Shown here piece after piece: positions 38,007 to 62,538 of a stretch of DNA of 64,000 bases. The DNA comes from Haloarcula salina (GTDB lineage Archaea > Halobacteriota > Halobacteria > Halobacteriales > Haloarculaceae): assembly GCF_010119195.1 (NCBI RefSeq), contig NZ_WRXL01000001.1, positions 868,001 through 932,000 on the forward strand, written 5' to 3'. Positions within the stretch are counted from its first letter, which is position 1; each line of letters begins with the position of its first letter. Both the position numbers and the translations under genes were made by a program. Below the pieces are notes generated by a model. That model made no database searches, was not told the DNA's origin, and was given only the letters and a program-made list of their open reading frames with translations.

Positions 38007-38127
38007 ACCCGCGAGATTGCGTCGGCGAGGCAATAAGACCCGGGTGCGAGAGCCGGTTCGAGGAAGGCGCAGGGAGTGACCCAAAGGTATTAGTGGACTC
38101 GACGTAACCCTAAGACAAGCCAACTTT

Positions 38128-38155
38128 CGCTAAGACAAAGTAATTTGTTTTAGCG
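38128..38155. promoter_or_regulatory. Palindromic operator at the cbiX promoter
   Basis: Arms CGCTAAGACAAA and TTTGTTTTAGCG (11 of 12 pairs) are separated by GTAA. A further half-site CTAAGACAAG lies at 38110-38119. The right arm overlaps the likely TATA (ATTTGTTTTAG) placed about 20-25 bases before the cbiX ATG at 38169, so bound protein would block transcription. Confidence 0.6.
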
Positions 38156-38168
38156 ACGGGAGCCACCA

Positions 38169-38942
38169 ATGCCACACGACACACTCCTGCTCATCGGTCG
38201 CGACGCGCCGCGTGCGACGCCGTTCGAGACACACGCTCGCCGCCTTCGCGACCGCGGGGTAGCCACGGACGTGCGAGTGCTGACCTACGACCGCGAGCCC
38301 CGCCGGGAGCTGCGCGAGGCCCTCGCCGCCGTCGACGCCGACCGCGTGTTCGCGCTCCCGCTGACCGTCGCCCACGACCACACGACGGTCACCGAGATTC
38401 CGGCCGCGCTGGCGGCCGTCGACGCCGAGACGCACTACTGCGAGCCCGTCGGGCGCAGTCCGCTCGTCACCGAGGCGCTCCGAGAGCGCGCGGTGTCGGT
38501 CGTCCCGGAGTCACACGACTCGTCGCTCGCGCTGGTCGCCTTCGGCTCCGGCGGCACGCCCTACCAGCGACAGGTGACGGAGTACCACGCCGAGCGCCTG
38601 CGCGAGCGGACCGACTTCGGCGAGGTCGAGCCCTGCTACCTGCTCCAGAACCCCGCCGTCGAGTGCGTGCGCTACAACCTCACCCGCGACCACGCCGCCG
38701 CCGTCCCGCTCTTTCTCGCGCCGAGCGAAGCGACCGCCGAGCAGATTCCCGCCAAGCTCGACCTCGACCGCGGCGGCCTCGCCTACGCCGACCCGCTCGG
38801 CGAGCACCCGCTCGTCACCGAGGCCATCGAGACCGCCGTCGAGACGACGCGGACGCTCGCCTGCGCGACCACGCCGCGGACCTTCGAGGCCACGCTGGCC
38901 GGGACGACGCGGCCGATGGCGACCGACGGCGAAGGCGACTAG
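38169..38942 (+). CDS. cbiX: CbiX-family chelatase, stand-alone
   Basis: A 257-residue protein with tandem chelatase-like halves. The first half starts DTLLLIGRDAPRATPFE and the second starts SLALVAFGSGGTPYQRQVTEYHAERL. CbiX inserts cobalt into sirohydrochlorin, the first committed step of the anaerobic corrin pathway; SirB/CfbA-type use of nickel or iron is possible. The classical paired histidines of active-site strands are less clear than in the second CbiX (50442-51665). The promoter carries a palindromic operator. A 388-base gap follows. Confidence 0.78.
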   Translation: MPHDTLLLIGRDAPRATPFETHARRLRDRGVATDVRVLTYDREPRRELREALAAVDADRVFALPLTVAHDHTTVTEIPAALAAVDAETHYCEPVGRSPLVTEALRERAVSVVPESHDSSLALVAFGSGGTPYQRQVTEYHAERLRERTDFGEVEPCYLLQNPAVECVRYNLTRDHAAAVPLFLAPSEATAEQIPAKLDLDRGGLAYADPLGEHPLVTEAIETAVETTRTLACATTPRTFEATLAGTTRPMATDGEGD

Positions 38943-40092: not shown

Positions 40093-40813
40093 CCAGGGAG
40101 ACCGCCCCCTCGCGCACGTCTGACGCGACGTGCACCAGTTCGTTCGTCAGCCCGGCGGCCAGCCCGCTCCCGCCCCGGCGGCCGACGTTCGTGATGGTCG
40201 GAACGCCGTGCTCGGCCGCCACCTCGCGGAGCCGTTTCCGGCTTTCGGCGGCCTTGACGAAGCCGACGGGCGTCGCGACGACGACGGCCGGCCGGGTCCC
40301 GTCCTCGATACAGTCCGCCAGCGCGAGCGCCGCGGTCGGCGCGTTGCCTACGACGGCGATAGCGCCGTCGTAGACGCCCTCCCTGTCGAGTTCGAGCACC
40401 GACGCGGCCGTCCGGGTCATCCCGGTCTCGGCGGCCAGCTCCGCGCCGTTGCCGATGGCCTTCCGCACCGGGCAGTCGTGCCCGCGGCCGGTGATACCCG
40501 CTTTCACCATCGTGATGTCGGTGACGATTGGCTGTTCGTCCAGCACGGCGCGCGCACCCGCGCGGACCGGTTCGTCGTCGTCCGCGCCGGTGAAGCGAAC
40601 GAGATGCTGGAACTCGGGGTCTCCGGACGCGTGGACCGACTTCTGGCGGATGCGGTCGGCGAGCGTCTCGTCGGGGACGAGTCTGCGAACGCGGTCCATC
40701 GAGGTCTCGGCGATGTCCATCGCGTTCTCCGTCGTCGCGCCGAGGTCGGCGTACTCTTCGAAGTCGCCCTCGCTGTTCGCGTCGTCTGTCGCGTCGTCCG
40801 TGTTAGTCGTCAT
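40085..40813 (-). CDS. cbiC: Cobalt-precorrin-8 methylmutase CbiC
   Basis: A 242-residue methylmutase that moves a methyl from C11 to C12 to form cobyrinic acid/hydrogenobyrinic acid. The N-terminal acidic stretch is followed by IAETSMDRVRRLVPDE, then MVKAGITGRGHDCPVRKAIGNG, with a family-conserved His (GHDCPV), and VGFVKAAESRKRL near the C terminus. It overlaps cobN by 11 bases and cbiE by 8, so the three are translationally linked. Confidence 0.93.
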   Translation of the reverse strand: MTTNTDDATDDANSEGDFEEYADLGATTENAMDIAETSMDRVRRLVPDETLADRIRQKSVHASGDPEFQHLVRFTGADDDEPVRAGARAVLDEQPIVTDITMVKAGITGRGHDCPVRKAIGNGAELAAETGMTRTAASVLELDREGVYDGAIAVVGNAPTAALALADCIEDGTRPAVVVATPVGFVKAAESRKRLREVAAEHGVPTITNVGRRGGSGLAAGLTNELVHVASDVREGAVSLDE

Positions 40814-43800
40814 CTGAAGTCACCTCCGTCCGTTCCGCACTGGTGTTGCGCGCTTCGAGGTCGCCATCCACTTCGAGGTTCAGGTCCCGCAGTCGGTCGC
40901 GCGTCTCGTCGTCGGCATCCCAGAGGCCGCGGTCGATGGCCTCCAGCAGCGTGTCGGTGATGGAGTCCAGCGCCCAGGGGTTCACGTCGCGGAGCCAGTC
41001 CTGGCGGTCCGCGTCGAAGGCGTACCGCTCGGCCACGTCGTCCCAGAGCGCGTCGCTGACGACGCCGGTGGTGGCGTCCCAGCCCAGCACCACGTCGACC
41101 GTGGTCGAGAGGTCGCCCGCGCCCTTGTAGCCGTGTTCCTCCATCGAGTCGAGCCACGATGGGTTGAGGACGCGGGCGCGCATCGCCTTGCGCACCTTCT
41201 CCTCGTTGGTGTACACGTCGACGTTGTCCGGGTCCGAGGAGTCGCCGACGTAGGAGTTCGGTTCCTCGCCGGCGATCTCGGTCACGGCGGAGATGAATCC
41301 GCCGTGGAAGGCGTACCAGTCGGAGGAGTCGAACTCGTCCTGCTCGGCGGTGTCCTCGATCTTGACCGTCGCGTCGACGGAAGCGAGGCGGCGCTCGAAG
41401 GACTCGTGGGCCTCGCTGACGCGGCCACGGGACCCCATCGCGTAGCCGCCCCACTGAACGTACACGTCGGCGAGGTCCGAGCGGTCGTCCCAGTTGCCCT
41501 CGTCGACGGCCTTGTTGGTGCCTGCGCCGTAGCCGCCGGGCCGCGTCGTGAAGACGCGGTGTTTCGCCGCGCTCTCGGCGTCGTCCTCGTCCATGCCGTC
41601 GGCCACGAGGTCGTCGGTCTCCGCCTCGACGTGTTTCTTCACGTAGTTCATCTCGTGGGGTTCGTCGAGGTCGACGACCGCGTCGACCGCGTCGTGGACC
41701 ACGCCCGCCGCCGCGGGGAAGGCGTCCCGGAACAGGCCCGAGACGCGCGTCGTCACGTCGATGCGCGGGCGGCCGAGTTCCTCCAGCGGAATCGGTTCCA
41801 CGTCCTCGACGCGGCCGGCGTCGGACCAGACAGGTTCGACGCCCATCAGCGCGAGCACCTGCGCGATGGTCTCGCCGCGGGTGCGGACCGTCGGCGTCCC
41901 CCAGACGACGACGCCGATCTCCTCGGGGTACTCGCCCTCGTCGCTCTCGTGGCGCTCCACCACGCCGGCGGCGACCTCGCGGCCCACGTCCCAGGCCGTC
42001 TTGGCCGGCACCTTCCGCGGGTCGAGCGTGTAGAAGTTCCGGGCCGTGGGGAGCAGGTCGACGCCGCCGCGGGTCGGCGCGCCGGAACCGCCGGGCGGGA
42101 CGTACTCGCCCGCCAGCGCGTCGGCGGTGCGGGGAATCTCGTCGGCCGCGCCGGCCACCCGCGGGGCGGCCTCCTCGCAGATGTACGCGAGCGCCTCGCG
42201 CAGGTCGTCGTGCGCGCCGGACCGAGCGCGGGCGTCCCCGATGGGGTCGATGTCGACGACGAGGAGGTTCATGTTCACCTCCGAGTCGCCGTCGTCGAGT
42301 TCGCTCACGGGCACGTCGAAGTCGTGCTCGGCCAGCGTCCGGACGAGAGCTTTGCTCGTCTCGTGGACGCGGTCGGCGGCCTCGGCGTAGGTCATCCCCA
42401 TGGCCTCGTCGTACTCGCCGGGGGCGTTGCGCAGTTTGTCGTAGTCGACGCCCAGCACGCCCGCGACGCTCTCGCGAAGGGACGGTGCGCCGGGGTTTTC
42501 GAGGCGCGTGAGCGCGACGAGGTAGTCGACCAGTCGGTCGTCGGCCGGCGGTTCGCCCATCGTGTGCAGGCCCTTGCGGATCTGGGTCGTCTTCACGTCG
42601 GTGAGGTACTCGTGGACGCGCTCGACGAGTCCGTCGATGGCCACGTCGTCACCGTCCACGTCTCCCTCCGCGAGCGTCGACCCCGCCTCGTCGGGCCCCC
42701 GCACGTCCGCTTTCTCGGAGATGTCGCCGGCGATGCCGAGTTCAACGGCGAGGTCCAGTTCGTCCACCGTCTGTCGAATCTGCTCGGCCAGGTGCTCGCC
42801 GTCGTCGGTGCGGGCGTCCTCCATGCCCGCCTCGCGGTAGCGGTCGGCCAGTTCCTCCAGGTCGGCGAGGTCGTCGTAGGTCCCGGCGTTGGCCATCACC
42901 GGGGTCAGATAGTCGACGATGGCGGCGTAGGACCGGCGCTTGGCCTGGGTCCCCTCGCCGGGGTTGTTGACGATGTAGGGGTAGACGTTCGGGATATCGT
43001 CGATCAGCTGGTCGGGCGCGCTCTCGCCGTCCAGTCCGACCGTCTTGCCGGGGAGCCACTCCAGACTGCCGTGGGTCCCCAGGTGGACGACGGCGTCGGC
43101 CTCGTAGGCGTTCCGGAGCCAGCGGTAGAAGGCGACGTAGTCGTGGGGCGGCTGGAGGGCCGAGTCGTGGTACACCTTCGAGGGGTCCATGCCGAACCCG
43201 CGCGGCGGCTGGACCGTGACGAGGACGTTGCCGAACTCCGCGCCCGGAATCGCGAACGGGCGCTCGGGCGGGTCGCCCCACTCCTCGACAACGTTCGCGC
43301 GGAAGTCCGGGTCCAGCGCCTCGAACCACTCGCCGTACTGGGCCGGCGAGACGGTGTCGACGCTCAGTTCGCGCACGTCCTCGGGCGCGACCCAGCGGTC
43401 GTCGAGCGTCAACTGGGCGGTGAGCCGTTCGACGAGCGACTGACCGCTCTCGGGCATCGTATTGCCCAAGTCGTAGCCGCGCCCGTCCAGTTCCTCCAGC
43501 AGATTCACCGCGCTCTCGGGCGAGTCCAGCCCGAAGGCGGTCCCGATGCCGTCGTCGCTCGGCGGGTAGTTGTGGAGGACGACGGCCACGTTCTTCTCGT
43601 CGTTTGGCGTGTGGCGCAGTTCGGCCCAGTTGACCGCGAGGCGCGCGACGTGGTCGACGCGGTCGTCGATGGGGAAGTGCTGTTTCGGGGCGCTGCCGAT
43701 GCCGGCGGCGTCGTCTGTGCGCTCCTTGCCCGAGATGGGGTGGGTGATGACGTTGCCGTCGAACTCCGGCAGCGCGACCGAGAGCGCGAGTTCGAAGCCC

Positions 43801-44690
43801 ATCACGCCCGTGTCGCTGGCGTCGTACCGGGAGCGCGAGCGCATCGTCGTCACGGTCTGGATGACGGGGACGCCCAGTTTGTCGAGGAACACGTCTTCGG
43901 CGCCGTCGCCCTCGTCGTCAGCGCTGCGTCCGCGTTCGTCCATCGACAGCGAGAACATGAACGACGAGCAGACGGCGTCGACGAGTGGATTGCCGTCCTC
44001 ATCCAGCAGCCACTCCTCGGTGACCTGCTCGGCGTTCCACTGGCCCTCGGCGTCGGTCGCCGGCTCGCAGAATATCGGGAGCGCGTTCGCGCCCTGGGCC
44101 TCGATGGCCCGGACCTGCGCGTCGACGTAACGGGTGTTCTCGTGGGTCCAGTGGGACTCGTAGAACCACACGGCGACGGTCGGCTTCGACGGATCGAACG
44201 TCGCCCGCAGGTCCGCGACGCTCGCGCCCGGGTGGTCCGGGTGGTAGACGCCCTCCGTCGGGAGCGCCACCGGGTCGTCGTAGGCGGGGTCGGCGTCGCC
44301 GTACTGCGCGACGAGGTAGCGGGCGCAGTTGGCGACGTTGCTCGCGCCGCCCTTCTCTAAGTACTCGTAGACCGTCTCGCGGTGCTCGTCGGGGACCGAC
44401 GTGTCCTCGAAGGCGAAGGCGTCGCCGGTGGCTTTCACGACCAGCGGGACGCCGGCCTCGCGCAGGCGCTCGACGGCCAGGTCGTAGCCCGGCATGCTGT
44501 CCTCGGCCCCGTGGAGCCAGAGGACGACGGCGTCGGCGTCGGTCAGTTCGTCGACGAACGCCTCGACCGCCGGTTCGTCGTCGAGGTCGCTCTCAGAGCG
44601 CACGACGAGGTCCGCGTCCACCTCGCCCGCGGCCCGCTGAACGGCCCCGAGTTCGTTCTCTGTCGCGGTGTAGAGTCCAAGCTGTGGCAT
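40803..44690 (-). CDS. cobN: Cobaltochelatase subunit CobN
   Basis: A 1295-residue large chelatase subunit homologous to ChlH of magnesium chelatase. The N-terminal domain (about 1-180) is followed by the catalytic CobN/ChlH core, with VVLHNYPPSDDGIGTAFGLD, LVTVQPPRGFG and GTHGSLEWLPGKTVGL (the metal/porphyrin region), and a C-terminal part ending SITDTLLEAIDRGLWD. It inserts cobalt together with an AAA+ partner, which must be the divergently encoded ChlID-like protein at 44726. CobN belongs to late cobalt insertion in aerobic organisms, yet here it coexists with CbiX. The start at 44690 is only 35 bases from the divergent start. Confidence 0.95.
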   Translation of the reverse strand: MPQLGLYTATENELGAVQRAAGEVDADLVVRSESDLDDEPAVEAFVDELTDADAVVLWLHGAEDSMPGYDLAVERLREAGVPLVVKATGDAFAFEDTSVPDEHRETVYEYLEKGGASNVANCARYLVAQYGDADPAYDDPVALPTEGVYHPDHPGASVADLRATFDPSKPTVAVWFYESHWTHENTRYVDAQVRAIEAQGANALPIFCEPATDAEGQWNAEQVTEEWLLDEDGNPLVDAVCSSFMFSLSMDERGRSADDEGDGAEDVFLDKLGVPVIQTVTTMRSRSRYDASDTGVMGFELALSVALPEFDGNVITHPISGKERTDDAAGIGSAPKQHFPIDDRVDHVARLAVNWAELRHTPNDEKNVAVVLHNYPPSDDGIGTAFGLDSPESAVNLLEELDGRGYDLGNTMPESGQSLVERLTAQLTLDDRWVAPEDVRELSVDTVSPAQYGEWFEALDPDFRANVVEEWGDPPERPFAIPGAEFGNVLVTVQPPRGFGMDPSKVYHDSALQPPHDYVAFYRWLRNAYEADAVVHLGTHGSLEWLPGKTVGLDGESAPDQLIDDIPNVYPYIVNNPGEGTQAKRRSYAAIVDYLTPVMANAGTYDDLADLEELADRYREAGMEDARTDDGEHLAEQIRQTVDELDLAVELGIAGDISEKADVRGPDEAGSTLAEGDVDGDDVAIDGLVERVHEYLTDVKTTQIRKGLHTMGEPPADDRLVDYLVALTRLENPGAPSLRESVAGVLGVDYDKLRNAPGEYDEAMGMTYAEAADRVHETSKALVRTLAEHDFDVPVSELDDGDSEVNMNLLVVDIDPIGDARARSGAHDDLREALAYICEEAAPRVAGAADEIPRTADALAGEYVPPGGSGAPTRGGVDLLPTARNFYTLDPRKVPAKTAWDVGREVAAGVVERHESDEGEYPEEIGVVVWGTPTVRTRGETIAQVLALMGVEPVWSDAGRVEDVEPIPLEELGRPRIDVTTRVSGLFRDAFPAAAGVVHDAVDAVVDLDEPHEMNYVKKHVEAETDDLVADGMDEDDAESAAKHRVFTTRPGGYGAGTNKAVDEGNWDDRSDLADVYVQWGGYAMGSRGRVSEAHESFERRLASVDATVKIEDTAEQDEFDSSDWYAFHGGFISAVTEIAGEEPNSYVGDSSDPDNVDVYTNEEKVRKAMRARVLNPSWLDSMEEHGYKGAGDLSTTVDVVLGWDATTGVVSDALWDDVAERYAFDADRQDWLRDVNPWALDSITDTLLEAIDRGLWDADDETRDRLRDLNLEVDGDLEARNTSAERTEVTSDDD

Positions 44691-44725
44691 AACGTTATTA
44701 AATCTCCGTTTTCACTAGTACAAGT
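44691..44725. promoter_or_regulatory. 35-base shared divergent promoter of cobN and chlID
   Basis: The complete space between two divergent start codons. On the plus strand TTATTAAATC (44695-44704) lies about 26 bases before the chlID ATG and acts as its TATA; the cobN promoter must overlap it. The sequence CTAGTACAAG (44715-44724) resembles the half-site CTAAGACAAG seen upstream of cbiX. Confidence 0.5.
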
Positions 44726-46873
44726 ATGGTTGTATTCGGCGCGGGCAAAAAAGCTTCGCAGGGGCCGGCGTTCGCGGCCGTCGTCGGCCAGCGCGACCTG
44801 AAGGACGGCCTGCTGGCGGTCGCGACGGACGACGACCTCGACGGCCTGCTGGTCCGCGGCGAGAAGGGCACGGCGAAGTCGACGGCGGTGCGCGCCCTCG
44901 CCGATCTGCTTCCCGAGCAGCGTGCGGTCGCGGACTGCCCCTACGGCTGTCCGCCCGACCGCCCCGAGGCCCAGTGCGAGGACTGCCGGGCGCGGGCGGA
45001 TCCGCCCGTCGAGACGCGGTCGGTCCCGCTGGTGACACTCCCGCTCGGGGCGACGCGGGACCGCGTCGTCGGCACGCTCTCCGTCGCCGACGCGCTGGAC
45101 GGCGACCACGAGTTCGACCCCGGCCTGCTGGCCCGCGCGAACCGCGGCATCCTCTACGTCGACGAGGTGAACCTCCTCGACGACCACCTCGTGGACGTGC
45201 TGTTAGACGCCGCCGCGAGCGGTCAGAATCGCGTCGAGCGCGACGGCGTCACCGTCACGCACCCCGCCGAGTTCACGCTCGTCGGGACGATGAACCCAGA
45301 GGAGGGCGACCTGCGGCCCCAACTCCGGGATCGCTTTGCCCTCCAGACCGAAGTCAGCGCGTGCGAGGCGCTCGACGACCGGGTCGCCATCATCGACCGG
45401 GCGCTCGGTGCGGACGCCGAGACTGAAACGACGGCCGAGGCGGACGACCGCGGCCCCGGCGAGCGACTGCGGACCGCCCGCGACCTGCTCCCCGAGGTCG
45501 ACCTCGCCCGCGAGTTCCGCGAGCAGATCGCCGAACTGTGTCGCGACGCCGGCCTCGACGGCCACCGTGGCGACATCGCCACCGCGCGGGCGGCCCGGAC
45601 GTTCGCCGCGCTCGACGGTCGGGCGACGGTGCTCGAATCCGACGTGGAACGCGCCGCCGCGTTCGCGCTCCCGCACCGACTCACCAGTCGCCCCTTCGAG
45701 GACGCGCCGGACGTAGACGACGTGCTGGACGACCACTTCGAGGACGAGGAGGGCGAGTCCGAGGAAGAGTCCGCCACCGACGAGGGGAGCGACGCGGACG
45801 GCGACGAGGAAGGAGAGGCCGGTGACGAGTCGGCAGACGACGGAGCCGATTCCGAAGGCGACGGCGATGGGGGGAAACAGGAACAGCCCCCGGACAGCAG
45901 CGGGGAATCTGACGATGAGAGGGACGAGTCGGAGGAGCGCGGTGAGCAACCGACGCCGGCATCCGCCGACAGCGACGGCGAGCGCCAGGAGGCCGACGCC
46001 GGCGACGAGAGCACCGCCGGCGGCGACGGGGACGCCGACGAGTCGGGCGAACCCGACCAGCCCGAGGATGCCGAGGACGCGACGCCGCTCCTGCCGGGAC
46101 AGTCCCGCGCTGCGGTCGGCGACAGCGGCGCGCCCGACGTGGACGCGCCGACGGTCGACACGGACGGCGGCGAGACGAGCGGGCGCGCGGGAGCGACGGG
46201 GACCAGCCGCGGCGCGACGGTCCGCACCGAGCGCGCCGGAGAGGACGACGAGGTCGACGCAGCGGCGTCGGTCAGGGCGGCGGCCGGGCGCGGGAGCGAC
46301 CGCGTCGAGTCGCGCGACCTCCGCAAGTCGGTCCGGGCGGGCGACGCGGAGACGCTGGTCGTGTTCGCCGTCGACGCGAGCGCGTCGATGCGGCCGGCGA
46401 TGCGCGCGGCGAAGGGCACGGTGCTCGAACTCCTGAAGGACGCCTATCAGGCCCGCGACGGGGTGGCGTTCGTCACGTTCGCCGGCGACGGAGCGGACGT
46501 GGTCCTGCCGCCCACCGACAGCGTCTCGCTGGCCGCCCGCCACCTCAAGGACCTGCCGACCGGCGACCGGACGCCGCTCCCCGACGGCCTCGTCGCCGCC
46601 CGCGAGGTGCTCGACCGCGCCGACCCGGACGCCGGCGTCGTCGTCCTGGTGACCGACGGCCGGGCCAACGCCGCCGAGGGGAGCCCCGTCGAGGCGACGC
46701 GGACCGCGGCCCGCGCGCTCGGCGAGGCGGCCGACCGGACCGTCGTCGTCGATGCGGGCGACGGGAGCCGCGCCGGCCTGCTCGACCTCGTGGCCGGCGA
46801 GACGGACGCGCGAATCGTGTCGCTCGACGCGCTGAGCGCCGAGCGCGTCGACGCCGTGGCGGGCGATCGATAG
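44726..46873 (+). CDS. chlID: ChlID-like AAA+/VWA subunit of cobaltochelatase
   Basis: A 715-residue ATP-driven partner of CobN, combining the I and D subunits of magnesium/cobalt chelatase. The N-terminal AAA+ domain has Walker A GEKGTAKST (about 46-54), Walker B ILYVDEVNLLDD and a zinc-like cluster CPYGCPPDRPEAQCEDC (about 71-87). A long very acidic, Gly/Ser-rich linker (about 335-505) joins it to a von Willebrand A domain with MIDAS motif VDASASM (about 549) and LVTDGRAN. Haloarchaea usually encode this single fused protein in place of CobS and CobT. cbtB follows after 57 bases. Confidence 0.93.
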   Translation: MVVFGAGKKASQGPAFAAVVGQRDLKDGLLAVATDDDLDGLLVRGEKGTAKSTAVRALADLLPEQRAVADCPYGCPPDRPEAQCEDCRARADPPVETRSVPLVTLPLGATRDRVVGTLSVADALDGDHEFDPGLLARANRGILYVDEVNLLDDHLVDVLLDAAASGQNRVERDGVTVTHPAEFTLVGTMNPEEGDLRPQLRDRFALQTEVSACEALDDRVAIIDRALGADAETETTAEADDRGPGERLRTARDLLPEVDLAREFREQIAELCRDAGLDGHRGDIATARAARTFAALDGRATVLESDVERAAAFALPHRLTSRPFEDAPDVDDVLDDHFEDEEGESEEESATDEGSDADGDEEGEAGDESADDGADSEGDGDGGKQEQPPDSSGESDDERDESEERGEQPTPASADSDGERQEADAGDESTAGGDGDADESGEPDQPEDAEDATPLLPGQSRAAVGDSGAPDVDAPTVDTDGGETSGRAGATGTSRGATVRTERAGEDDEVDAAASVRAAAGRGSDRVESRDLRKSVRAGDAETLVVFAVDASASMRPAMRAAKGTVLELLKDAYQARDGVAFVTFAGDGADVVLPPTDSVSLAARHLKDLPTGDRTPLPDGLVAAREVLDRADPDAGVVVLVTDGRANAAEGSPVEATRTAARALGEAADRTVVVDAGDGSRAGLLDLVAGETDARIVSLDALSAERVDAVAGDR

Positions 46874-46930
46874 CCCGACCGAGGCGGAAGTTTTACAATC
46901 TCACTTGTTCTTTAGACAATTGAGTCTTCA

Positions 46931-47137
46931 ATGCAGGACGACACTGACACTGCACGCGCTACGGACAGCGTGTACGACCGAATCGACCGCGCCAGAGCGT
47001 CCCTGACCGGACCACAGATCGCCATCGCCGTCGCGCTGGTGGCGGCGCTGGGCTTCACGCTCCTGTTCGTCCAGGACCCGATGCTCCACGACTCGCTGCA
47101 CAACTTCCGACACAGCGCCGGTATCACCTGCCACTGA
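46931..47137 (+). CDS. cbtB: Cobalt transporter subunit CbtB
   Basis: A 68-residue membrane protein with one transmembrane helix (about 31-52, IAIAVALVAALGFTLLFV), followed by a metal-binding tail MLHDSLHNFRHSAGITCH with His and Cys. CbtB is the small partner of CbtA in a cobalt uptake system often regulated by B12. Its stop codon overlaps the cbtA start by one base (47137). A promoter with TTTTACAAT (46891-46899) lies upstream; ending AGACAAT is close to the half-site of cbiX. Confidence 0.93.
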   Translation: MQDDTDTARATDSVYDRIDRARASLTGPQIAIAVALVAALGFTLLFVQDPMLHDSLHNFRHSAGITCH

Positions 47138-47850
47138 TGGCGACCGACTACCTCGAACGGGGCGCGGTCGCCGGCGTCGCCGGCGGGCTCGTCTACGGGC
47201 TGTTCGTCGCGACCGTCGGTAACGCGTTCACCGCCGGGCTGGAGACGTTCGAACACGGGCACGGTCACGGCGGCGGCCCGGTCGTCTCCGAACTGACGAC
47301 GACCGTCGCCAGCGTCGGCGGCGGCGTCCTCTGGGGCGTCCTCTTCGGCGTCGCCGCCTTCGGCATGGCGTACTTCTTCCTCGAACCGGCCCTGCCGGGA
47401 ACGGGGGCGACGAAGCGCCTCGCGCTCGCCGGAGCGGGCTTTCTCACCGCCTCGGGCGCGCCGTGGCTCGTCCTACCGCCCCAGCCGCCGGGCGTCGAGC
47501 AGGCACTGGGAACGGACACCCGGCTGGCGTGGTACGCCGGCATGATGGTCCTCGGGGCGCTGGTCGCGGCGCTCGCTGCCCTCGCCGCGCGGCGGACCGC
47601 GGATCGGCACGCGGCGGTCAGGCTGGCCGCGACCGCGGCTCCGCTCGCGCTGCTCGCGGTCCCGGTCGCACTCGCGCCCGCCAACCCCGTCCACGGCGAC
47701 GTGCCCGCGTCGCTGGTCGCCGCGTACCGCTGGACGGTCGTGTTCGGTCAGCTACTCCTGTGGGCGACCATCGCTGGCGTCCACGCGTGGCTCGGCGACG
47801 CCGAGACCCGAGTGAGCGAGGACCTCGACTACCCGGCGACGGCCGACTGA
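47137..47850 (+). CDS. cbtA: Cobalt transporter subunit CbtA
   Basis: A 237-residue membrane protein with about six transmembrane segments. The His-rich stretch HGHGHGG (about 47-53) between the first and second segments fits metal binding. The conserved LPPQPPGVEQALG region typical of CbtA is present at about residues 109-121. With CbtB it imports Co2+ for the corrin pathway encoded on both sides. It overlaps cbtB by one base and is followed by a convergent gene at 47863. Confidence 0.93.
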   Translation: MATDYLERGAVAGVAGGLVYGLFVATVGNAFTAGLETFEHGHGHGGGPVVSELTTTVASVGGGVLWGVLFGVAAFGMAYFFLEPALPGTGATKRLALAGAGFLTASGAPWLVLPPQPPGVEQALGTDTRLAWYAGMMVLGALVAALAALAARRTADRHAAVRLAATAAPLALLAVPVALAPANPVHGDVPASLVAAYRWTVVFGQLLLWATIAGVHAWLGDAETRVSEDLDYPATAD

Positions 47851-50441: not shown

Positions 50442-51665
50442 TCACAGCGTCTGGTCGACGAGTTCGCTGACGATGCGGTCGCGGTCGAGGTGCGAGGAGA
50501 CGATCTCCTCTGCGTCGCGCTCCCCGACGCCGCCGTACCAGACCCCGTCGGGGTAGACGGCGACCATCGGCCCCTCGCCGCAGCGGCCGAGACACGACGA
50601 GCGCGTGATGCGGGCGTCGCACTGGTCGCTGTCGCGCGCGGCCTGGCGGAGGCGTTCGAGGACCGCGGGCGAGCCCTCGCCCGCGCAGGTCTGGTTCGTG
50701 CAGACCGCGACGTGCTTCTCGGGCGCGTCGTGGACGTGGGGGTCGTCGGCCACGTCCTCGCGGTCGGCGTGTTCGGCCTGATGGGTCAGCGCCCGGAGCA
50801 TCGCCCGCGCGCCGCCCTGGTCTTCCTCGTAGCCGTCGAGTTCGACCTTGTACTTGCAGGTGTCACAGGACATCTCGACGCTCCCCGTGCGGGCCTCCTG
50901 CCAGCGGTCGCCGAGCACGTCGAGCAGGCGTGGATCGGTCCCCAGCGGCTCGCCGGGGGCGGCGTCGACGTACGGGTACTCCTCGTCGAACTCGCGCGCG
51001 CCGTCCTTGATGCGGCCGGTCAGCACGCCGTCGCCGAGCATGTAGGGCACGACGACGACGGCGTCGGGTCGGCTCTTCGCCAGGTCGTGCAGCGTCTCGG
51101 AGAGCAGCGGCTCGGTGACGCCGATGAACGACGCCTCGACCCGCGAGAAGTCGCGGCCCTCGTAGAGCAGGCGGGCGAGCTTGTGTACGTCGGCGTTGGC
51201 GTCCGGGTCGCTGGAGCCCCGGGCACAGACCACGACGGCCACGTCGTCGCGTTCGCGGTCGACGCCCAGGTCGGCCTCCACGCTCGCCGCCCGGTCGTCG
51301 AGCAGGTCGAGGATCGCGGGGTGGACGCCCAGGTGCGCGCCGTTGTTGATGGTCAGTTCGGGGTGGGCCTCGCGGGCCTGCGTGACCGCCAGCGGCACGT
51401 CGTTCTTGACGTGGCTCGCGGCGAACAGCGAGAGGTGGACGACCGTGACCTGTGAGACTGTCGCGGCCAGCCCCGAGACGGCCTCGTCGATGGCCGGCTC
51501 GGCCAGTTCGAGGAACGCCGCGTCGACCGGGATGCCGAGCCGCCCTTCGAGGTCGGCGGCCAGCTCTCGGACCTGCTCGTTGGACCTCTCGCGCCGGGAG
51601 CCGTGGCCGACGAGCAGGACCGCCTCGTCGTCCAGCGCGTCGGCGGCGACGGTCGCTTCGCTCAT
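50442..51665 (-). CDS. cbiX: CbiX chelatase fused to a [2Fe-2S] ferredoxin domain
   Basis: A 407-residue fusion. Residues 15-270 are CbiX with two halves: AVLLVGHGSRRERSNEQVRE (His of the active site) and HLSLFAASHVKNDVPLAV (second His); then VAVVVCARGSSDPDANADV. An intermediate Cys pair is MSCDTCKYKVE (about 264-269). The C-terminal part (about 310-400) is a thioredoxin-like [2Fe-2S] ferredoxin with C-x4-C in VCTNQTCAGE and C-x3-C in SCLGRCGEGP. Chelatases of the CbiX type with Fe-S clusters are known. It overlaps the LAGLIDADG-like gene by 4 bases. Confidence 0.93.
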   Translation of the reverse strand: MSEATVAADALDDEAVLLVGHGSRRERSNEQVRELAADLEGRLGIPVDAAFLELAEPAIDEAVSGLAATVSQVTVVHLSLFAASHVKNDVPLAVTQAREAHPELTINNGAHLGVHPAILDLLDDRAASVEADLGVDRERDDVAVVVCARGSSDPDANADVHKLARLLYEGRDFSRVEASFIGVTEPLLSETLHDLAKSRPDAVVVVPYMLGDGVLTGRIKDGAREFDEEYPYVDAAPGEPLGTDPRLLDVLGDRWQEARTGSVEMSCDTCKYKVELDGYEEDQGGARAMLRALTHQAEHADREDVADDPHVHDAPEKHVAVCTNQTCAGEGSPAVLERLRQAARDSDQCDARITRSSCLGRCGEGPMVAVYPDGVWYGGVGERDAEEIVSSHLDRDRIVSELVDQTL

Positions 51666-52321
51666 CGGACTCGCTCGACGCTCTTTCGGAGCTTGCGCCG
51701 CCGGCTCGGCGCGAACAGCCCCGTCGCGTCGCTGCCCTCGTACAGCCAGTCGCCCAGCGCCGGAGCGGCCTCGTCGGCCACCCCGAACCAGTGGCCCGAC
51801 GACGCCTCGGCGAGGTCGTCGGACGGCGCGTCGACCGGGCAGCGGTCGAGCAGCGTCTGGATCGTCCGGAGCAGGCGCTCGTCTTCGTGGACGAACGAGA
51901 TGCCCACGGCGCCGGCGTCGGACTTGAAACAGACCGTGCCACAGCCCTCCAGCAGGCCCCGGAGGAGCTGGCGGTCGTAGTCGGCGAAGGCGTCGAAGCG
52001 GTAGCCGCCGGCCTCCCCGTCGAAGGGCAGGCCCAGCGCCGCGCTGGCGCGGTCGGCCAGCCCGCCGATGACCTGGACGGTGAACTCCTCCTCGCGGCGG
52101 GTGATCGAGGTGTCGTGGGCGTAGGCCCGCTCGACGATGCGGCGGTCGGCGCGCTCCGCGCCGGCGATGGACGCGAGGCGGCGGGCGGCGGTCTCGTCGC
52201 TCGTCCGCACGGTGACACAGCCGTCTTCGCAGTCGCCGTCGGCGGCGACCCGCCCCCAGAAGTACGCCGTCTCCGGGTGGGCTGCGAGCATGTCCGACGG
52301 CGCGCCGGTCTCGACGCTCAC
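51662..52321 (-). CDS. LAGLIDADG-like protein of the cobalamin operon
   Basis: A 219-residue protein found in haloarchaeal cobalamin operons. It shows two degenerate LAGLIDADG motifs: YFWGRVAADG (residues 20-29) and LLRGLLEGCG (119-128), each followed by a beta-rich stretch (CVTVRTSDE, then VCFKSDAGAVGISFV), as in single-chain homing endonucleases and WhiA. In the second motif the usual acidic residue before Gly is Cys127. No DNA-binding HTH extension is apparent. It overlaps its neighbours by 4 bases. A nuclease role is unlikely; regulation or a structural role in corrin synthesis are possibilities. Confidence 0.72.
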   Translation of the reverse strand: MSVETGAPSDMLAAHPETAYFWGRVAADGDCEDGCVTVRTSDETAARRLASIAGAERADRRIVERAYAHDTSITRREEEFTVQVIGGLADRASAALGLPFDGEAGGYRFDAFADYDRQLLRGLLEGCGTVCFKSDAGAVGISFVHEDERLLRTIQTLLDRCPVDAPSDDLAEASSGHWFGVADEAAPALGDWLYEGSDATGLFAPSRRRKLRKSVERVR

Positions 52322-55581: not shown

Positions 55582-55870
55582 GAATGTCCTCCGGCCGGTG
55601 TTCGGTCACACGCGGCTGCCGGCCAGTCAGCCGCTCGGCTACTGCCAGCCATTCCACTCCCAGCTGCTGTCGGCGCGCGCCGGCGCGCTCGGATGGCGCG
55701 CCAGAAATCGTGCGAGGGATGAGCGACCGACAGTCGAAGGGAGCGAATCGGATGGGGAGGCGTGTGGTCTGCTGTTTGGTGCGGTGCTGTGGGGTGGACT
55801 GAAAGGGGCCGGGCGCTCCGGGAAGACGACTGACGCAAGCACGCAAGCGAAGCGAGCGCGCGCAGCGAGG

Positions 55871-55899
55871 TCCTCGACCGGAGCGACCGGGGGCTTTCT
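55871..55899. repeat. 29-base direct repeat, unit 1
   Basis: Starts TCCTCGACCGGAGCGACCGG and ends GGGCTTTCT. The identical unit is at 55931-55959 with a 60-base period. Confidence 0.9.
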
Positions 55900-55930
55900 A
55901 CCTGTACTCGGCACCTCCCGCTACTCCTAG

Positions 55931-55959
55931 TCCTCGACCGGAGCGACCGGGGGCTTTCT
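55931..55959. repeat. 29-base direct repeat, unit 2
   Basis: Identical to 55871-55899. The spacer of 31 bases between them is unrelated. The 29 bases on the minus strand end GGTCGCTCCGGTCGAGGA, which has a short self-complementary part and could act in termination. Confidence 0.9.
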
Positions 55960-56007
55960 GGCGGTTCGCGGTCGCGTCCGCAGTGACCACGGCGCGTCCG
56001 GACCATC

Positions 56008-56922
56008 CTAGTCGTCGGCCTCCTGTGAGTCCGCGTCGCTCCCCCGGTTCGCCCAGTCGCCGTACAGGTACGAACGCTCGTAGTCGTCCCCGCCCACCGC
56101 GTCGCCGATGACGACCATGGCTGAGGCGCGATAGCCGGCGTCTTCGAGTTTCTCGCCGATGGTCGCAATCGTTCCTTCGATGACGTCCTCGTCGGGCCAG
56201 GACGCGTGGTACACGGCCGCCACGGGCGTGTCGGGGTCGTGCCCGTCGGCCAGCAGGCGGTCCATCGTCTCGCTCACGGCGTGGGTCCCCAGATAGATAC
56301 AGGTCGTCACGTCGCCCATGCCGACGAACTCGGAGATGTGGTCCTCCTCGGCGTCGAGCGTCTTGCCCTGCGGGCGGGTGAAGGCGACGTGGTTGGCGAC
56401 CTCGTTGAGGGTCAACTGCGTGCGCATCGTCGCGCTGGCGGCGAACGCCGAGGTGACGCCGGGGACGATGTAGGTGGGGACGCCCTCGTGTTCGAGCGCG
56501 TCCATCTGCTCCAGGGCGGCCCCGTAGATGGCCGGGTCGCCGCTGTGGAGGCGAACCACGGTGTCGCCGGCCTCGTAGGCGTCGCGCATCAGCGGGATCA
56601 GCTCCTCCAGGTCCTTGCCGATGGACGACACCGTCTCGGCGTCGGCGCAGTACTCGTCCAGCAGTTCGCTGTTGACCAGCGAACCGGCGTGGACCACGAG
56701 GTCGGCGTCGGCGAGCAGGTCGCGGCCGGCGACGGTCAGCAGGCGGGGGTTCCCGGGGCCGGCCCCGACGAAGGGGATGCCCGCCTGCTCGTCACCGGCG
56801 CTGTGCTCGTAGACGCGGTCGTCCCGGTTCCCGGCGACGGAGTCGATGGCGTCCTGCGGGTCCGTCTCGTCCGCGGGCGGGGCGTCGGGCGTCTCGCCGT
56901 TGGCAGCGTCGTCGCCGGTCAT
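56008..56922 (-). CDS. cbiF: Cobalt-precorrin-4 C11-methyltransferase CbiF
   Basis: A 304-residue TP methylase with an acidic N-terminal extension of about 48 residues. The core begins IPFVGAGPGNPRLLTVAGRD, then LHSGDPAIYGAALEQMDAL, VPGVTSAFAASATMR, AFTRPQGKTLDAEEDHISEF and YLGTHAVSETMD. It methylates C11 of cobalt-precorrin-4. It overlaps cbiL by 4 bases. ATG 56922 (MTGDDAANGE) is the start. Confidence 0.93.
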   Translation of the reverse strand: MTGDDAANGETPDAPPADETDPQDAIDSVAGNRDDRVYEHSAGDEQAGIPFVGAGPGNPRLLTVAGRDLLADADLVVHAGSLVNSELLDEYCADAETVSSIGKDLEELIPLMRDAYEAGDTVVRLHSGDPAIYGAALEQMDALEHEGVPTYIVPGVTSAFAASATMRTQLTLNEVANHVAFTRPQGKTLDAEEDHISEFVGMGDVTTCIYLGTHAVSETMDRLLADGHDPDTPVAAVYHASWPDEDVIEGTIATIGEKLEDAGYRASAMVVIGDAVGGDDYERSYLYGDWANRGSDADSQEADD

Positions 56923-57713
56923 CGTCGCACCTCGTCGCCGCAGAGGGCGGCCTCGGAGCGTTCCTGGCGTTCGAGGTCGCCGATGGACTGCGCACCGCCG
57001 TCGGTAACGACCCCGCTCTCGTCGGCCGCTTCGAGGAACGCGTCGGTGGCCTGCTCGACGCGGGCGTCGGGTCGCTCGGCGTAGGCCAGCGTGTAGTAGT
57101 CTCGCTCGTCGATGTCGGTCGGGTCGTCGGTGACGACCGTCTCGCCCTGCTCCATGAACAGCCGGCGGCCGTACACCACGTCGTAGCCGGCCTCGGTCAG
57201 GCCCTCGTGAGTGGCCGGCGCGTCGGTCACCTTGAACAGAATCATTCGGTCGGGACCGGTCGGCGACGCGCCCTGATCGGCCTCCCGCAGGGCGAGGCTG
57301 GAGCCGGCGGTGACCTCGACGCCCAGCGCGGTGGCGAACGCCGTCACCGCGCTGACGCCGGGGACGACTTCGAGGTCGACCGCGGGGTGAAACGCCGCGA
57401 GCGTCCGCCGGAGGTGACCGAACGTCGAGTAGACGTTCGGATCGCCCAGCGTGACGAAGGCGGCGTCGCCGTCGCGGGCGGTCGGCGCGATCTCCGCGGC
57501 GGCCTCCTTCCACGCCGCGCGCAGTTTCTCCTCGTCGCGCGTCATCGGGAAGTCGAGGTCGCCGATCCGCGATTCCGGGACGTGCTCGGTCGCGACCGAG
57601 CGGGAGAGTCGACCCGGCGAGTACACCACGTCGGCCGACTCCAGCGCGCGCTTGCCACGGACCGTCACGAGGTCGGGCTGACCGGGACCGAGGCCGACGC
57701 CGTAGAGCGTCAT
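56919..57713 (-). CDS. cbiL: Cobalt-factor II C20-methyltransferase CbiL
   Basis: A 264-residue TP methylase. LYGVGLGPGQPDLVTVRGKRAL begins the fold; FVTLGDPNVYSTFGHLRRTL and VVPGVSAVTAFATALG follow. It methylates C20 of cobalt-factor II, the first methylation after chelation. The C terminus ends LCGDEVRR with Cys258. It overlaps cbiT and cbiF by 4 bases each. Confidence 0.93.
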   Translation of the reverse strand: MTLYGVGLGPGQPDLVTVRGKRALESADVVYSPGRLSRSVATEHVPESRIGDLDFPMTRDEEKLRAAWKEAAAEIAPTARDGDAAFVTLGDPNVYSTFGHLRRTLAAFHPAVDLEVVPGVSAVTAFATALGVEVTAGSSLALREADQGASPTGPDRMILFKVTDAPATHEGLTEAGYDVVYGRRLFMEQGETVVTDDPTDIDERDYYTLAYAERPDARVEQATDAFLEAADESGVVTDGGAQSIGDLERQERSEAALCGDEVRR

Positions 57714-58348
57714 CGCTCGCCTCCGTCGACCGCGTTGCCGTCGGCCGTCTCTGCGGTACTCGGACTGCCGCCGCTCGTTCCGCCACAGCCGTCAGCGGCC
57801 ACGTCCGCGCTCGCGCTGCCGACGAGCATGTAGACGGGATTCTCGGAGTCGAAGCTGGTCGCGCCGGCGAGCTCGTAGCCGTGACTCACCTGGAACTGGA
57901 CGACCTCTTCCAAGATGTCTCGCTCGCGGAAGGCCTCGGTCGCCGCGCCGGCGACCTCCAACCGCGAGACGTTCATGACGATTCGGTCGACGCCGGTCTC
58001 GACGGCGTGGTCGAGGACGGCCTCGTAGTTGCGCGAGCCGCCGAGAAAGAGCGCGTCGGCGTCGTCGGGCAGGCCCTCGGGGGCCTCGGCCTCGCGCAGT
58101 TCGACGGCGGCGCTGGTGTCGTTCGCCGCGAGGTTCTCGCGGGTCACGTCGAGTCGACCGGCCTTGCGTTCGAGCGCAGTGACCCGCCCGGCCCGGCGCG
58201 CCGCCTCGATGGTGACGGCCCCGGTACAGGAGCCGACCTCGACGAAGTGGTCGGACTCGCTGAGGGCGAGTTTGCTTGCGAGGACGGCCCGGACCTCCGG
58301 CTTGGTCGGGCCGGCCTTCGCGTCGTGTGGGAGCGAGACGCGTGACAT
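57710..58348 (-). CDS. cbiT: Cobalt-precorrin-6B C15-methyltransferase/decarboxylase CbiT
   Basis: A 212-residue Rossmann SAM methyltransferase (VEVGSCTGAVTIEAAR is motif I), with FLGGSRNYEAVLDHA and IVMNVSRLE. CbiT methylates C15 and removes the acetate carboxyl at C12; its CbiE partner gene is at 39331-40092. After about residue 180 a Ser/Gly/Asp-rich tail holds Cys188 (DGCGGTSGG). I start at ATG 58348 (MSRVSLPHDAK); the in-frame ATG at 58459 would add a non-haloarchaeal leader. First gene of the operon; the promoter with a palindrome lies upstream. Confidence 0.93.
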   Translation of the reverse strand: MSRVSLPHDAKAGPTKPEVRAVLASKLALSESDHFVEVGSCTGAVTIEAARRAGRVTALERKAGRLDVTRENLAANDTSAAVELREAEAPEGLPDDADALFLGGSRNYEAVLDHAVETGVDRIVMNVSRLEVAGAATEAFRERDILEEVVQFQVSHGYELAGATSFDSENPVYMLVGSASADVAADGCGGTSGGSPSTAETADGNAVDGGER

Positions 58349-58380
58349 CACGCTATACAACTGCGGTAGCGCGTAAAACA

Positions 58381-58403
58381 ATTTTGGTTGTATTAACCAA
58401 AAT
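58381..58403. promoter_or_regulatory. Perfect palindrome at the head of the cbiT operon
   Basis: ATTTTGGTT and AACCAAAAT flank GTATT (9-5-9, all pairs match). It lies 33-55 bases upstream of the cbiT ATG, directly next to a TATA-like TTGTTTTA (minus strand, about 58371-58378) placed 23-30 bases before the ATG. A dimeric regulator here would control the entire corrin operon. Confidence 0.75.
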
Positions 58404-58492
58404 AGATGTGGTCGTCGGGCGCTTTGGAGACAAATCGAGTTGTGTTTTCGCTCGGACACGATCGAAACGCGTCCGTGACGGAGACGCCGTCC

Positions 58493-60550
58493 TCAGAAGT
58501 CGGGACCCGGCGCGGGGACGCCGCCGTCGTCCCCGCCGTCGAGGTCGAACTCCTCGCGCAGTTCGCGGATTCGGTCGCGGATGTCGGCGGCCAGTTCGAA
58601 CTCCAGGTTGTCCGCGGCCTCGTGCATCCGCGCCTCCAGTTGCTCGACCTGCCGGGCCGCCTCGTCGGCGTCGCCGGGCCCCTCGCCCGTGACGCCGCCG
58701 GTGTCGGTCTTGCTCCCGGGGAGGTTCGTCTCGCCGACTTCCTTCTCGATGGTCGTCGGCTCGTAGCCGTGCTCCTCGTTGTACTGCTGCTGGATGCGGC
58801 GGCGGCGCTGGGTCTCCTCGATGGCCGACTGCATGGCGTCGCTGCGGTCGTCGGCGTACAGCACCACCTCGCCGTTGACGTTTCTGGCCGCGCGGCCCAT
58901 CGTCTGGACGAGCGTGGTCTCCGAGCGCAGGAACCCCTCCTGATCGGCGTCGAGGATGGCGACGAGCGAGACCTCGGGGATGTCGAGTCCCTCTCGAAGG
59001 AGGTTGATGCCGACCAGCACGTCGATCTCGCCGAGGCGGAGCGAGCGGATGAGTTCGTGGCGCTCCAGCGTGTCGGTCTCGTCGTGCATGTAGGCCACGT
59101 CCACGCCGGCCTCCTCCAGGTACTCCGTGAGGTCCTCGGCCATCCGCTTGGTCAGCGTCGTGACGAGCACGCGCTCGTCGCGCTCGACGCGGTCGTCGAT
59201 GCGGTCCAGCAGGTCCTCGACCTGCCCCGTCGCCGACGCGACCTCGACCGCCGGGTCGACGAGGTGCGTCGGGCGGACGATCTGTTCGACCACCTGCTCG
59301 CTGTGGTCGCGCTCGTAGTCGGCGGGCGTCGCGGAGACGTACAGCGTCCGGTCGGTCTTCTCCTCGAACTCCTCGAAGGTCAGCGGGCGGTTGTCGAAGG
59401 CCGTCGGCAGGCGGAAGCCGTTCTCGACGAGACTCTCCTTGCGGCTCTTGTCGCCCTGGAACTGCCCGCGGATCTGCGGGAGCGTCTGGTGGGACTCGTC
59501 GACGACGGTGAGGAAGTCCTCCGGGAAGTAATCCAGCAGGGTGTACGGGGCCTCGCCAGTCTCGCGGTCCGAGAGATGGACCGAGTAGTTCTCTATCCCC
59601 GAGCAGTAGCCAGTCTCCTGCATCATCTCGATGTCGAAGGTGGTCCGCTCCTCGATGCGCTGGGCCGCGACGTGGTTGCCCTGGCGCTCGAAGTAGCGGA
59701 TGCGCTGTTCGAGTAGCTCCTCGATCTCGTCGATGGCGCGCTGGAGGCGCTCCTCGGGGATGGAGTAGTGTTCGGCCGGGTGGACGAGCGCCGCCGGCTC
59801 CTCGCTCTTGACCTCTCCCTCCAGCGGGTCGACCTTCAGCATCCGGTCGATCTCGTCGCCCCAGAACTCCACGCGGATGGCGTAGCGGCCGTACATCGGG
59901 TAGATTTCGAGCGTGTCCCCGCGCACGCGGAAGGTCCCCTGCGTGAAGTCCACGTCGTTGCGCTCGTAGTTCAGATCGACCAGCCGTTTGAGCACCTCGT
60001 CGCGGTCGATCCGCTGGCCGACTTCCAGCGAGAGGGACATGTCCACGTAGTTGCGCGGGTCGCCGAGGCCGTAGATGGCCGACACGGAGGCGACGACGAT
60101 CACGTCGTCGCGGGTGAGCAGCGAGCGCGTCGCCGAGTGGCGCAGGCGGTCGATCTCGTCGTTGATCGAGGCGTCCTTGTCGATGAACGTGTCCGTCTGC
60201 TCGACGTAGGCCTCGGGCTGGTAGTAGTCGTAGTAGGAGACGAAGTACTCGACGGCGTTGTCCGGGAACAGATTTCGGAACTCCTCGTAGAGCTGGGCCG
60301 CGAGCGTCTTGTTGTGGGCGATGACCAGCGTGGGCTTCTGGATCTCCTCGACCACCCACGAGACGGTGTTCGTCTTCCCGGAGCCGGTCACGCCGAGCAG
60401 GGTCTGTCGGTCCATGCCCTGACGGTACCCGTCGGCAAGCTGCTCGATGGCCTCGGGCTGGTCGCCGGCCGGCTCGAACGGGGCGTCGACGCGGAACGCG
60501 CGCTCGGCGTCGGGACGGTCGATGGAGAGGGGACCACCGGAGTCGCTCAT
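58493..60550 (-). CDS. uvrB: Excinuclease ABC subunit B
   Basis: A 685-residue damage-verification helicase of nucleotide excision repair. Walker A is in [14 protein letters not shown] (about 53-66), the beta-hairpin region has [21 protein letters not shown], and later motifs [10 protein letters not shown]-like ([13 protein letters not shown]) and [17 protein letters not shown] follow. A C-terminal UVR motif (about 638-673) docks UvrC. Length is as usual. Monocistronic; the partner uvrC lies about 47 kb away on the other strand. Confidence 0.97.
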
Positions 60551-62097: not shown

Positions 62098-62538
62098 CAC
62101 GGCGGCTGAGGGGAGTAAGCCCCCTTCTGTTCGGGCCGGCATTCGGCTCAGCGGCCGCGTCCAGCGCTCGCGCGCGGCGTCGGACTACCTGTCGACGCGG
62201 CCTTGCACCGGTGAGGTTTCGCCGTTCCATCGGTCCGTCGCCGGGAGCGTGGAGCACGATTGCGCTCCACGTCGACCGCGGGCAAGACGCCCGCAGTCGC
62301 GCGGATCGAGTCACGATCCGCGACTGCCCTCGGTGGGTTAGCTCTCCCTCGCTTCGGCCGCGATCGGGCGGCCTCGCTCGGGATTCGCGCACCTCATCGG
62401 TCCGGCGACGACGTGTCGTTTCTGTTCCAGAGCCGACGGTCTCCCGCCCCGGACTTGCGCCCGGTCACCCGTCCGACGGGTGGGGGGACTTTCCTCATGC
62501 CTCGCGGCACGGGAGCCGGCCTCCCTCTGCCGGTCAGA
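62098..62538 (-). ncRNA. rnpB: RNase P RNA (archaeal type A)
   Basis: The minus strand carries the universally conserved RNase P RNA elements: GAGGAAAGTCCCCCC near the 5' end (62481-62496), GGAACAGAAACGAC in the middle (about 62417-62430), and CGAACAGAAGGGGGCTTACT near the 3' end (62114-62133). A P3-like hairpin GGGAG/CTCCC (about 62510-62525) and several long GC stems lie between, including GTGGAGCGCAATCGTGCTCCAC (two arms about 62250-62271). It processes the 5' ends of tRNAs. Boundaries are estimated; a TATA-like GTAAGCCTTATC (62555-62566) would start transcription near 62535. Confidence 0.92.

Follow-up and report, generated by a model that had tools for sequence, protein, structure and literature searches.

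The window analysed here, the whole 64,000-nt stretch of Haloarcula salina DNA, contains a perfect 9-5-9 palindrome at 58381–58403, within the 144-bp gap between uvrB (58493–60550, minus strand) and cbiT (57713–58348, minus strand; TIGR02469 above cut-off). Further genes for cobalamin synthesis and cobalt uptake in the window include cbiX2, which encodes a CbiX-like chelatase (38169–38942, plus strand; its matches to models of sirohydrochlorin chelatase are weak and stay below cut-off), cobN (40803–44690, minus strand; TIGR02257 above cut-off), a gene for a ChlID-type cobaltochelatase subunit recognised by domain search (44726–46873, plus strand), and cbtA for a probable cobalt transporter subunit (47137–47850, plus strand; PF09490 above cut-off), with a cbtB-like ORF (46931–47137) just upstream of it. 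Among the named relatives of the window's CbiT, the nearest are Haloarcula records. The part of PMC8305020 that covers this cluster lists its cobalamin genes and four unassigned ones. The description of the genes headed by cbiT as an 11-gene operon, put forward in an earlier note made from the sequence alone, is doubtful: about 430 bp without a convincing gene separate cbiF from cbiG, so that the genes may form two transcription units. The gap (55582–56010) holds a 29-bp direct repeat, at 55871–55899 and 55931–55959. In other species of the genus, an extra operator box, of the type described below, lies some 4.3 kb downstream of the cbiT site, in a gap between cbiG and cbiH (L146 position 1501, G007:C3:240912); the window has no such gap between these two genes. 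A covariance-model search for cobalamin riboswitches, near cbiT and throughout the window, bore out the remark that none was visible, as no part of the window gave a cobalamin riboswitch match at the Rfam gathering score and the sole Rfam match was the archaeal RNase P RNA gene (62104–62531, minus strand). To our knowledge, there is little evidence of B12 riboswitches in haloarchaea.

The palindrome, ATTTTGGTT-GTATT-AACCAAAAT, is present exactly as first described, and its sequence is unusual. Allowing up to three mismatches, it occurs once in the window (and in none of 100 shuffles), and a scan for further copies across the 3.79-Mb genome likewise returned a single occurrence. Perfect 9-bp arms with loops of 3–8 nt are more frequent in the window than in shuffled sequence (20 versus a mean of 7.6 over 20 shuffles). 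The one at 58381–58403 is the only one of these 20 with at least six of nine A+T positions in its arms, making it the sole A+T-rich perfect 9-bp palindrome in this GC-rich window; one of the 20 shuffles also yielded such an arrangement. The symmetry is not shared by related promoters. The comparison took in 81 cbiT promoters (79 distinct ones), those of 80 named loci and that of the window: all nine pairs form only in the window, seven form in one other promoter, and between two and six form in the remaining 77. This rules out the palindrome as a functional unit. A lack of conservation upstream of cbiT, which the earlier note had named as grounds for abandoning its proposal, is thus what we found for the palindrome, but the sequence surrounding it is conserved. 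The dyad centre of the conserved box lies at 58384.5, not at 58392, so that the palindrome overlaps the conserved operator 7.5 bp out of register. On the cbiT strand, its right arm is part of the conserved box, and its left arm is largely lineage-specific sequence. Judged by this comparison, the palindrome itself is a local accident, the conserved operator seen out of register.

The conserved element has the consensus (C)TAnnACAA-N6-TTGTnnTA and is usually doubled, as CAA-N6-TTG-N3-TA-N3-CAA-N6-TTG with a 20-bp period. In the cbiT promoters, the consensus reads CAA-N6-TT(G/T)-N3-TA-N3-CAA-nCAAAA-TTGTTTTA, that is, two CAA-N6-TTG boxes placed 20 bp apart and symmetrical about TA. With the A of ACAA set to 0 and positions read on the cbiT strand, little or no variation is seen at 1–3 (CAA), 5 (C), 8–9 (AA), 10–12 (TTG), 13–17 (TTTTA), −4/−3 (TA) and −10/−9 (TT); CAA at −19 to −17 is strongly conserved. 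Five or all six pairs of the box dyad form in 76 of the 79 distinct promoters. The near box is fused to a TATA-like TTTTA about 30 nt 5′ of the ATG. In the window, this promoter-proximal box, TAATACAACCAAAATTGTTTTA, was located by the promoter comparison at 58374–58395 (minus strand), and its TTTTA (minus strand, 58378–58374) directly adjoins the conserved box, in line with the position next to a TATA-like element first assigned to the palindrome. The full double operator spans 58379–58410 (here and below, double operators and cores, like the palindrome, carry no strand) and has 12 of 14 specified bases, its distal box being degenerate in this species. The core search found a further exact ACAA-N6-TTGT in the uvrB–cbiT gap, at 58430–58443.

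The exact core ACAA-N6-TTGT occurs five times in the window (38135, 44720, 46895, 58378 and 58430), and all five instances fall at cobalamin promoters: those of the CbiX-like gene, cobN/chlID and cbtBA, and twice that of cbiT. A double operator precedes the CbiX-like gene (38116–38147, 13 of 14 specified bases), and the core search placed exact cores between cobN and chlID (44720–44733, with a TA flank at 44716) and, in the cbtBA promoter, before cbtB–cbtA (46895–46908). In the whole genome, perfect TAnnACAA-N6-TTGT is found in only three places, all of them cobalamin promoters (cbiT, cobN/chlID and the CbiX homologue). Single-box matches with one mismatch number 10 forward and 21 reverse in the genome against 16 and 9 in the control; these counts resemble background, and we do not regard the matches as real sites. 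By eye, no B12 genes were seen in their contexts outside the cobalamin cluster. The suggestion that a protein controls the cbiT promoter gains support from these results, given a conserved operator of the protein-binding type at cbiT, its recurrence at other cobalamin promoters and the lack of a riboswitch.

The distribution of the operator was followed across haloarchaea. In 67 genomes sampled from the family of the window's species, a scan with CTAnnACAA-N6-TTGT gave matches in 41; besides those at cbiT, cbiX2 and elsewhere in the cobalamin cluster, they include sites before class I nrdA, nrdR–nrdA units, nrdD and the adenosyltransferase gene cobA, and there are also matches without clear B12 or ribonucleotide reductase (RNR) context. 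Among 252 genomes of the class, the exact double box is present at 75 places in 69 genomes, compared with none for the reversed control. Contexts were read for 48 of the 75 sites, the other 27 carrying the cbiT-type proximal box, and 41 of the 48 front cobalamin, cobalt-uptake or RNR genes: cbiT (15), cbiX2 (15), class I nrdA (4), nrdR units (2) and, named by eye, uroporphyrinogen methyltransferase (SUMT; 2), cbiM (2) and nrdJ (1). The other seven front genes without a clear B12 or RNR role: a substrate-binding protein gene beside cbiE (2), a thioesterase gene (1), a site upstream of an HTH gene (1) and others (3). In several genomes, the double box belongs to an acyl-CoA thioesterase-like gene, which in some cases lies beside nrdR or uvrB (L162 position 1501, L353 position 3509, L384 position 1501). 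The exact double operator precedes a substrate-binding lipoprotein gene beside cbiE (L386 and L387, both position 1501), possibly an uptake gene for B12 or cobalt, and a gene for a CbiM-like cobalt transporter, identified by eye (L406 position 1500, L407 position 1543). At genes for B12 synthesis, cobalt uptake and B12-independent RNRs, the boxes lie on or beside the TATA/BRE region. Taken from sequence comparison, it is close to certain that haloarchaea conserve this element as the operator of a B12 regulon.

The RNR genes bear on the signal to which the regulon would respond. PF02867 matched a class II-like gene in each of the 67 family genomes (about 300–460 bits; inserts split some of these genes) and, in 18 of them, a class I gene as well (about 600–650 bits), short split matches (about 600 aa, eight genomes) and other partial matches having been left out of the classes. 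For one class I protein, TIGR02506 and PRK07207 both scored above cut-off, confirming its class. A double box with at least 12 of 14 specified bases stands directly before 12 of the 18 class I nrdA genes, and the other six belong to nrdR–nrdA units with the double box in front of nrdR, so that within the family all 18 class I units carry it. None of the 52 promoters of nrdJ, the gene for the B12-dependent class II enzyme, reaches 12 of 14 (12 plus 40 examined, all from the window's family); among shuffled regions, 1 of 3000 does. The genome of the window has one large RNR subunit gene by PF02867, which scores like class II, and no operator site was found before this sole PF02867 gene. There is one contrary case, in G179, where an exact double operator lies 128 bp upstream of nrdJ (L404 position 1506, G179:C2:27505); among the RNR genes, it alone departs from the B12 logic. 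If the sensor responded to dNTPs, nrdJ would be expected among its targets, and a B12 sensor should leave it out; the contrast between the RNR classes therefore favours a B12-related signal. With the exception of L404, the operator is found at B12 synthesis genes and at the B12-independent isozyme, and not at the B12-dependent one. As far as target genes can tell, the logic is likely that of B12 rather than of dNTPs.

The matches at nrdR and nrdA first led us to suspect that the boxes are NrdR boxes and that NrdR, sensing dATP/ATP, controls the RNR genes and through them the B12 supply. The several sites before nrdR, nrdA and nrdD and the paired arrangement of the boxes, which resembles the NrdR design, speak for this, but the reading is very improbable, and as the general reader NrdR is ruled out. 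An ATP-cone protein is lacking in the window's genome and in eight other operator-bearing genomes; the ATP-cone family (PF03477), which the same search found in 12 of 14 control genomes, is present in 4 of 17. The RNR genes of a genome, which NrdR would be expected to target, are divided, with nrdJ (0 of 52) outside the regulon that takes in nrdA (18 of 18). The spacing also differs, as the 12-bp boxes here are separated by 8 bp and not by the 15–16 bp that, according to the relevant part of PMC12051234, is usual for NrdR boxes, nor by the 25–26 bp that is the alternative. In genomes that possess it, NrdR may act in addition.

A second candidate is encoded inside the operon itself, namely a LAGLIDADG-like protein (51662–52321, minus strand) with a weak LAGLIDADG_3 match (E 0.0025, below cut-off), which would read the site as a domesticated DNA-binding protein. 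Of the 36 family genomes that have a strong cbiT match, 35 encode it, and outside these genomes only a weak match was found, in G082. Its second motif is LLEGCG, without the acidic residue that a nuclease would be expected to have. The protein is absent, however, where the operator sits at nrdA, nrdR or nrdD (for example, in G048, G086, G087, G040, G054, G058 and G078), and its absence from operator-bearing genomes without cbi genes rules it out as the general reader; we give this reading scarcely any weight, less than any other considered here. The protein is a candidate pathway helper. The third possibility, that the element is read by TrmB or by some other global regulator already known, is hardly more probable. 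The TrmB motif is TACT-N7-8-GAGTA. It is unlike the box and is absent from all 109 cbiT upstream regions (duplicates counted), even though TrmB affects cob/cbi genes in Halobacterium salinarum according to the part of PMC3794607 on these genes.

A better candidate emerges from the genes facing cbiT. The gene that faces away from cbiT in G060 codes for a winged-helix protein, and a gene for a protein of this kind, with a C-terminal DUF7839, is divergent from cbiT at 134–150 nt in 26 of the 80 named loci, including those of Halobacterium salinarum, Haladaptatus and Halorussus. Both domains score above their curated cut-offs: one such protein (L219) reaches 36.9 bits for MarR_2 and 134.5 for DUF7839, each against a cut-off of 27, and two further proteins also exceed the cut-offs. 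In the remaining 54 named loci, the gene is not within the fetched sequence of up to 4 kb before cbiT; the commonest neighbour there is a CbiA-like gene (by eye; a family of 15 members), and the sequence before cbiT showed no other regulator gene that recurs between loci. An alternative that accepts both the operator and the B12 regulon is that another transcription factor reads the box and that the HTH-DUF7839 protein is a neighbour with a different job. All 67 family genomes encode the protein (form A only in 40, form B only in 26 and both in one; Fisher-tested, with relatedness ignored), so its phylogenetic profile is uninformative and a universal gene gives no discrimination between the two readings; in genomes with form B, moreover, no operator lies near the gene. 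The genome of the window is such a case, with a diverged homologue, 47% identical, encoded about 0.73 Mb away (G000:C1:198269–199027) and no operator found upstream of it. Against the alternative stand the recurrence of the divergent HTH–cbiT pairing over many genera, the HTH gene of G067, which faces away from nrdA across an intervening operator, operators upstream of the HTH-DUF7839 gene itself in G065 (13 of 14 specified bases) and G112 (exact, L388), and the lack of another recurrent regulator in the 54 loci. We consider a different reader unlikely, although far less so than NrdR, the LAGLIDADG-like protein or TrmB.

Form B of the HTH-DUF7839 protein is 44–49% identical to the query, and the two forms are separate clades in a tree of 47 of the 51 intended rows; the four left out include the B-form protein of the window's genome, whose placement rests on identity. 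Alignment A1 omits two of the 26 HTH genes (L012 and L017). Around the recognition helix, the two forms have almost identical sequence (TxQAVSxY). An AlphaFold model supports the winged helix (pLDDT about 83–91 in that part) and is poor for the C-terminal part (mean 68.7, pTM 0.41). Foldseek matches are to the DNA-binding domains of IclR, MarR and CggR, and sequence and fold searches of the PDB likewise match the winged-helix part. DxHxxG is a motif associated with B12 binding. It is absent from the HTH-DUF7839 consensus, with no B12-binding mode in sight. All told, this protein is the likely reader of the operator.

The cbiT site would then be, probably, the operator of a haloarchaeal cobalamin regulon that the MarR-like winged-helix DUF7839 protein reads and represses when B12 is sufficient; its DNA binding, its ligand and the direction of control are what we infer from the arrangement of sites and genes. 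Two protein dimers would sit side by side on the double box. At cbiT and cbiX2 they would cover BRE/TATA; at nrdA, the stretch immediately preceding BRE. With B12 sufficient, the bound dimers would keep TBP and TFB off the promoter; with B12 short, the block would lift, B12 synthesis and cobalt uptake would rise, and species owning a class I RNR would switch it on in place of the B12-dependent class II enzyme. The same operator and regulon might instead serve an activator: bound immediately upstream of BRE, it would bring in TFB/TBP, and B12 would release it. At nrdA, BRE/TATA follows immediately on the double box with almost constant spacing, which would suit such an arrangement, and modelling in H. 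salinarum infers activators of cob/cbi, the second regulator among them being inferred as an activator and not a repressor (PMC3794607, in its treatment of these genes). The other promoters argue against activation: the near box at cbiT adjoins the TATA element, and that of cbiX2 lies 5–20 nt from the ATG and would cover a TATA box at −26. Since the operator does not keep a constant position with respect to TATA from one promoter to the next, occlusion is a better fit than activation, and we regard an activator as improbable, slightly more so than a different reader.

Bacterial cobalamin riboswitch regulons comprise genes for B12 synthesis and transport and, in Streptomyces, class Ia nrdAB. 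The haloarchaeal operator shares this target set and logic, B12 genes plus a B12-independent isozyme, but here the control element is a DNA operator at the core promoter, in contrast to the mRNA sensor of the bacterial systems. NrdR boxes (parts of PMC9110341 and PMC12051234 deal with the distribution of NrdR and with the spacing) resemble the haloarchaeal boxes in being paired, helix-phased palindromes near RNR promoters; they differ in sequence and spacing, and the haloarchaeal boxes have cobalamin targets, leave out nrdJ and occur in many genomes that lack NrdR. With MarR-family repressors, the candidate shares the winged-helix domain (MarR_2) and a short dyad over the core promoter, and it is unlike them in its C-terminal DUF7839 and 20-bp double box. 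The work on H. salinarum (PMC3794607) concerns the same operon, controlled by TrmB, and calls for a second transcription factor; it differs in inferring an activator and proposing other genes, and the operator does not appear in its parts on cob/cbi. Among titles and abstracts, we found no report of the operator or of DUF7839 as a regulator, and a comparative study of B12 regulation from 2003 (Rodionov, J Biol Chem) might mention an archaeal site.

As read from the genomes, the targets and the operator pattern are the logic of a protein-run, B12-responsive regulon. For the second cob/cbi regulator of Halobacterium, left open in the corresponding part of PMC3794607, an operator can now be named, together with a list of its targets and a candidate protein. 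Winged-helix DUF7839 proteins might even form a new class of cobalamin-sensing archaeal repressor, in which DUF7839 binds a corrinoid and a single protein, found throughout the haloarchaeal family, takes the place of the B12 riboswitch and turns off B12 synthesis, cobalt uptake and B12-independent RNRs through double 12-bp boxes; we advance this tentatively, as a possibility that falls somewhat short of an even chance. Corrinoid binding by DUF7839, if real, would make it a B12-sensing domain that differs from the ones familiar to us. The operator also links B12 supply to the choice of RNR: a strong cbiT match is found in 3 of the 18 genomes with class I nrdA versus 33 of the other 49 (Fisher p 0.0003, relatedness ignored), and species without B12 synthesis tend to hold the class I enzyme under the same operator.
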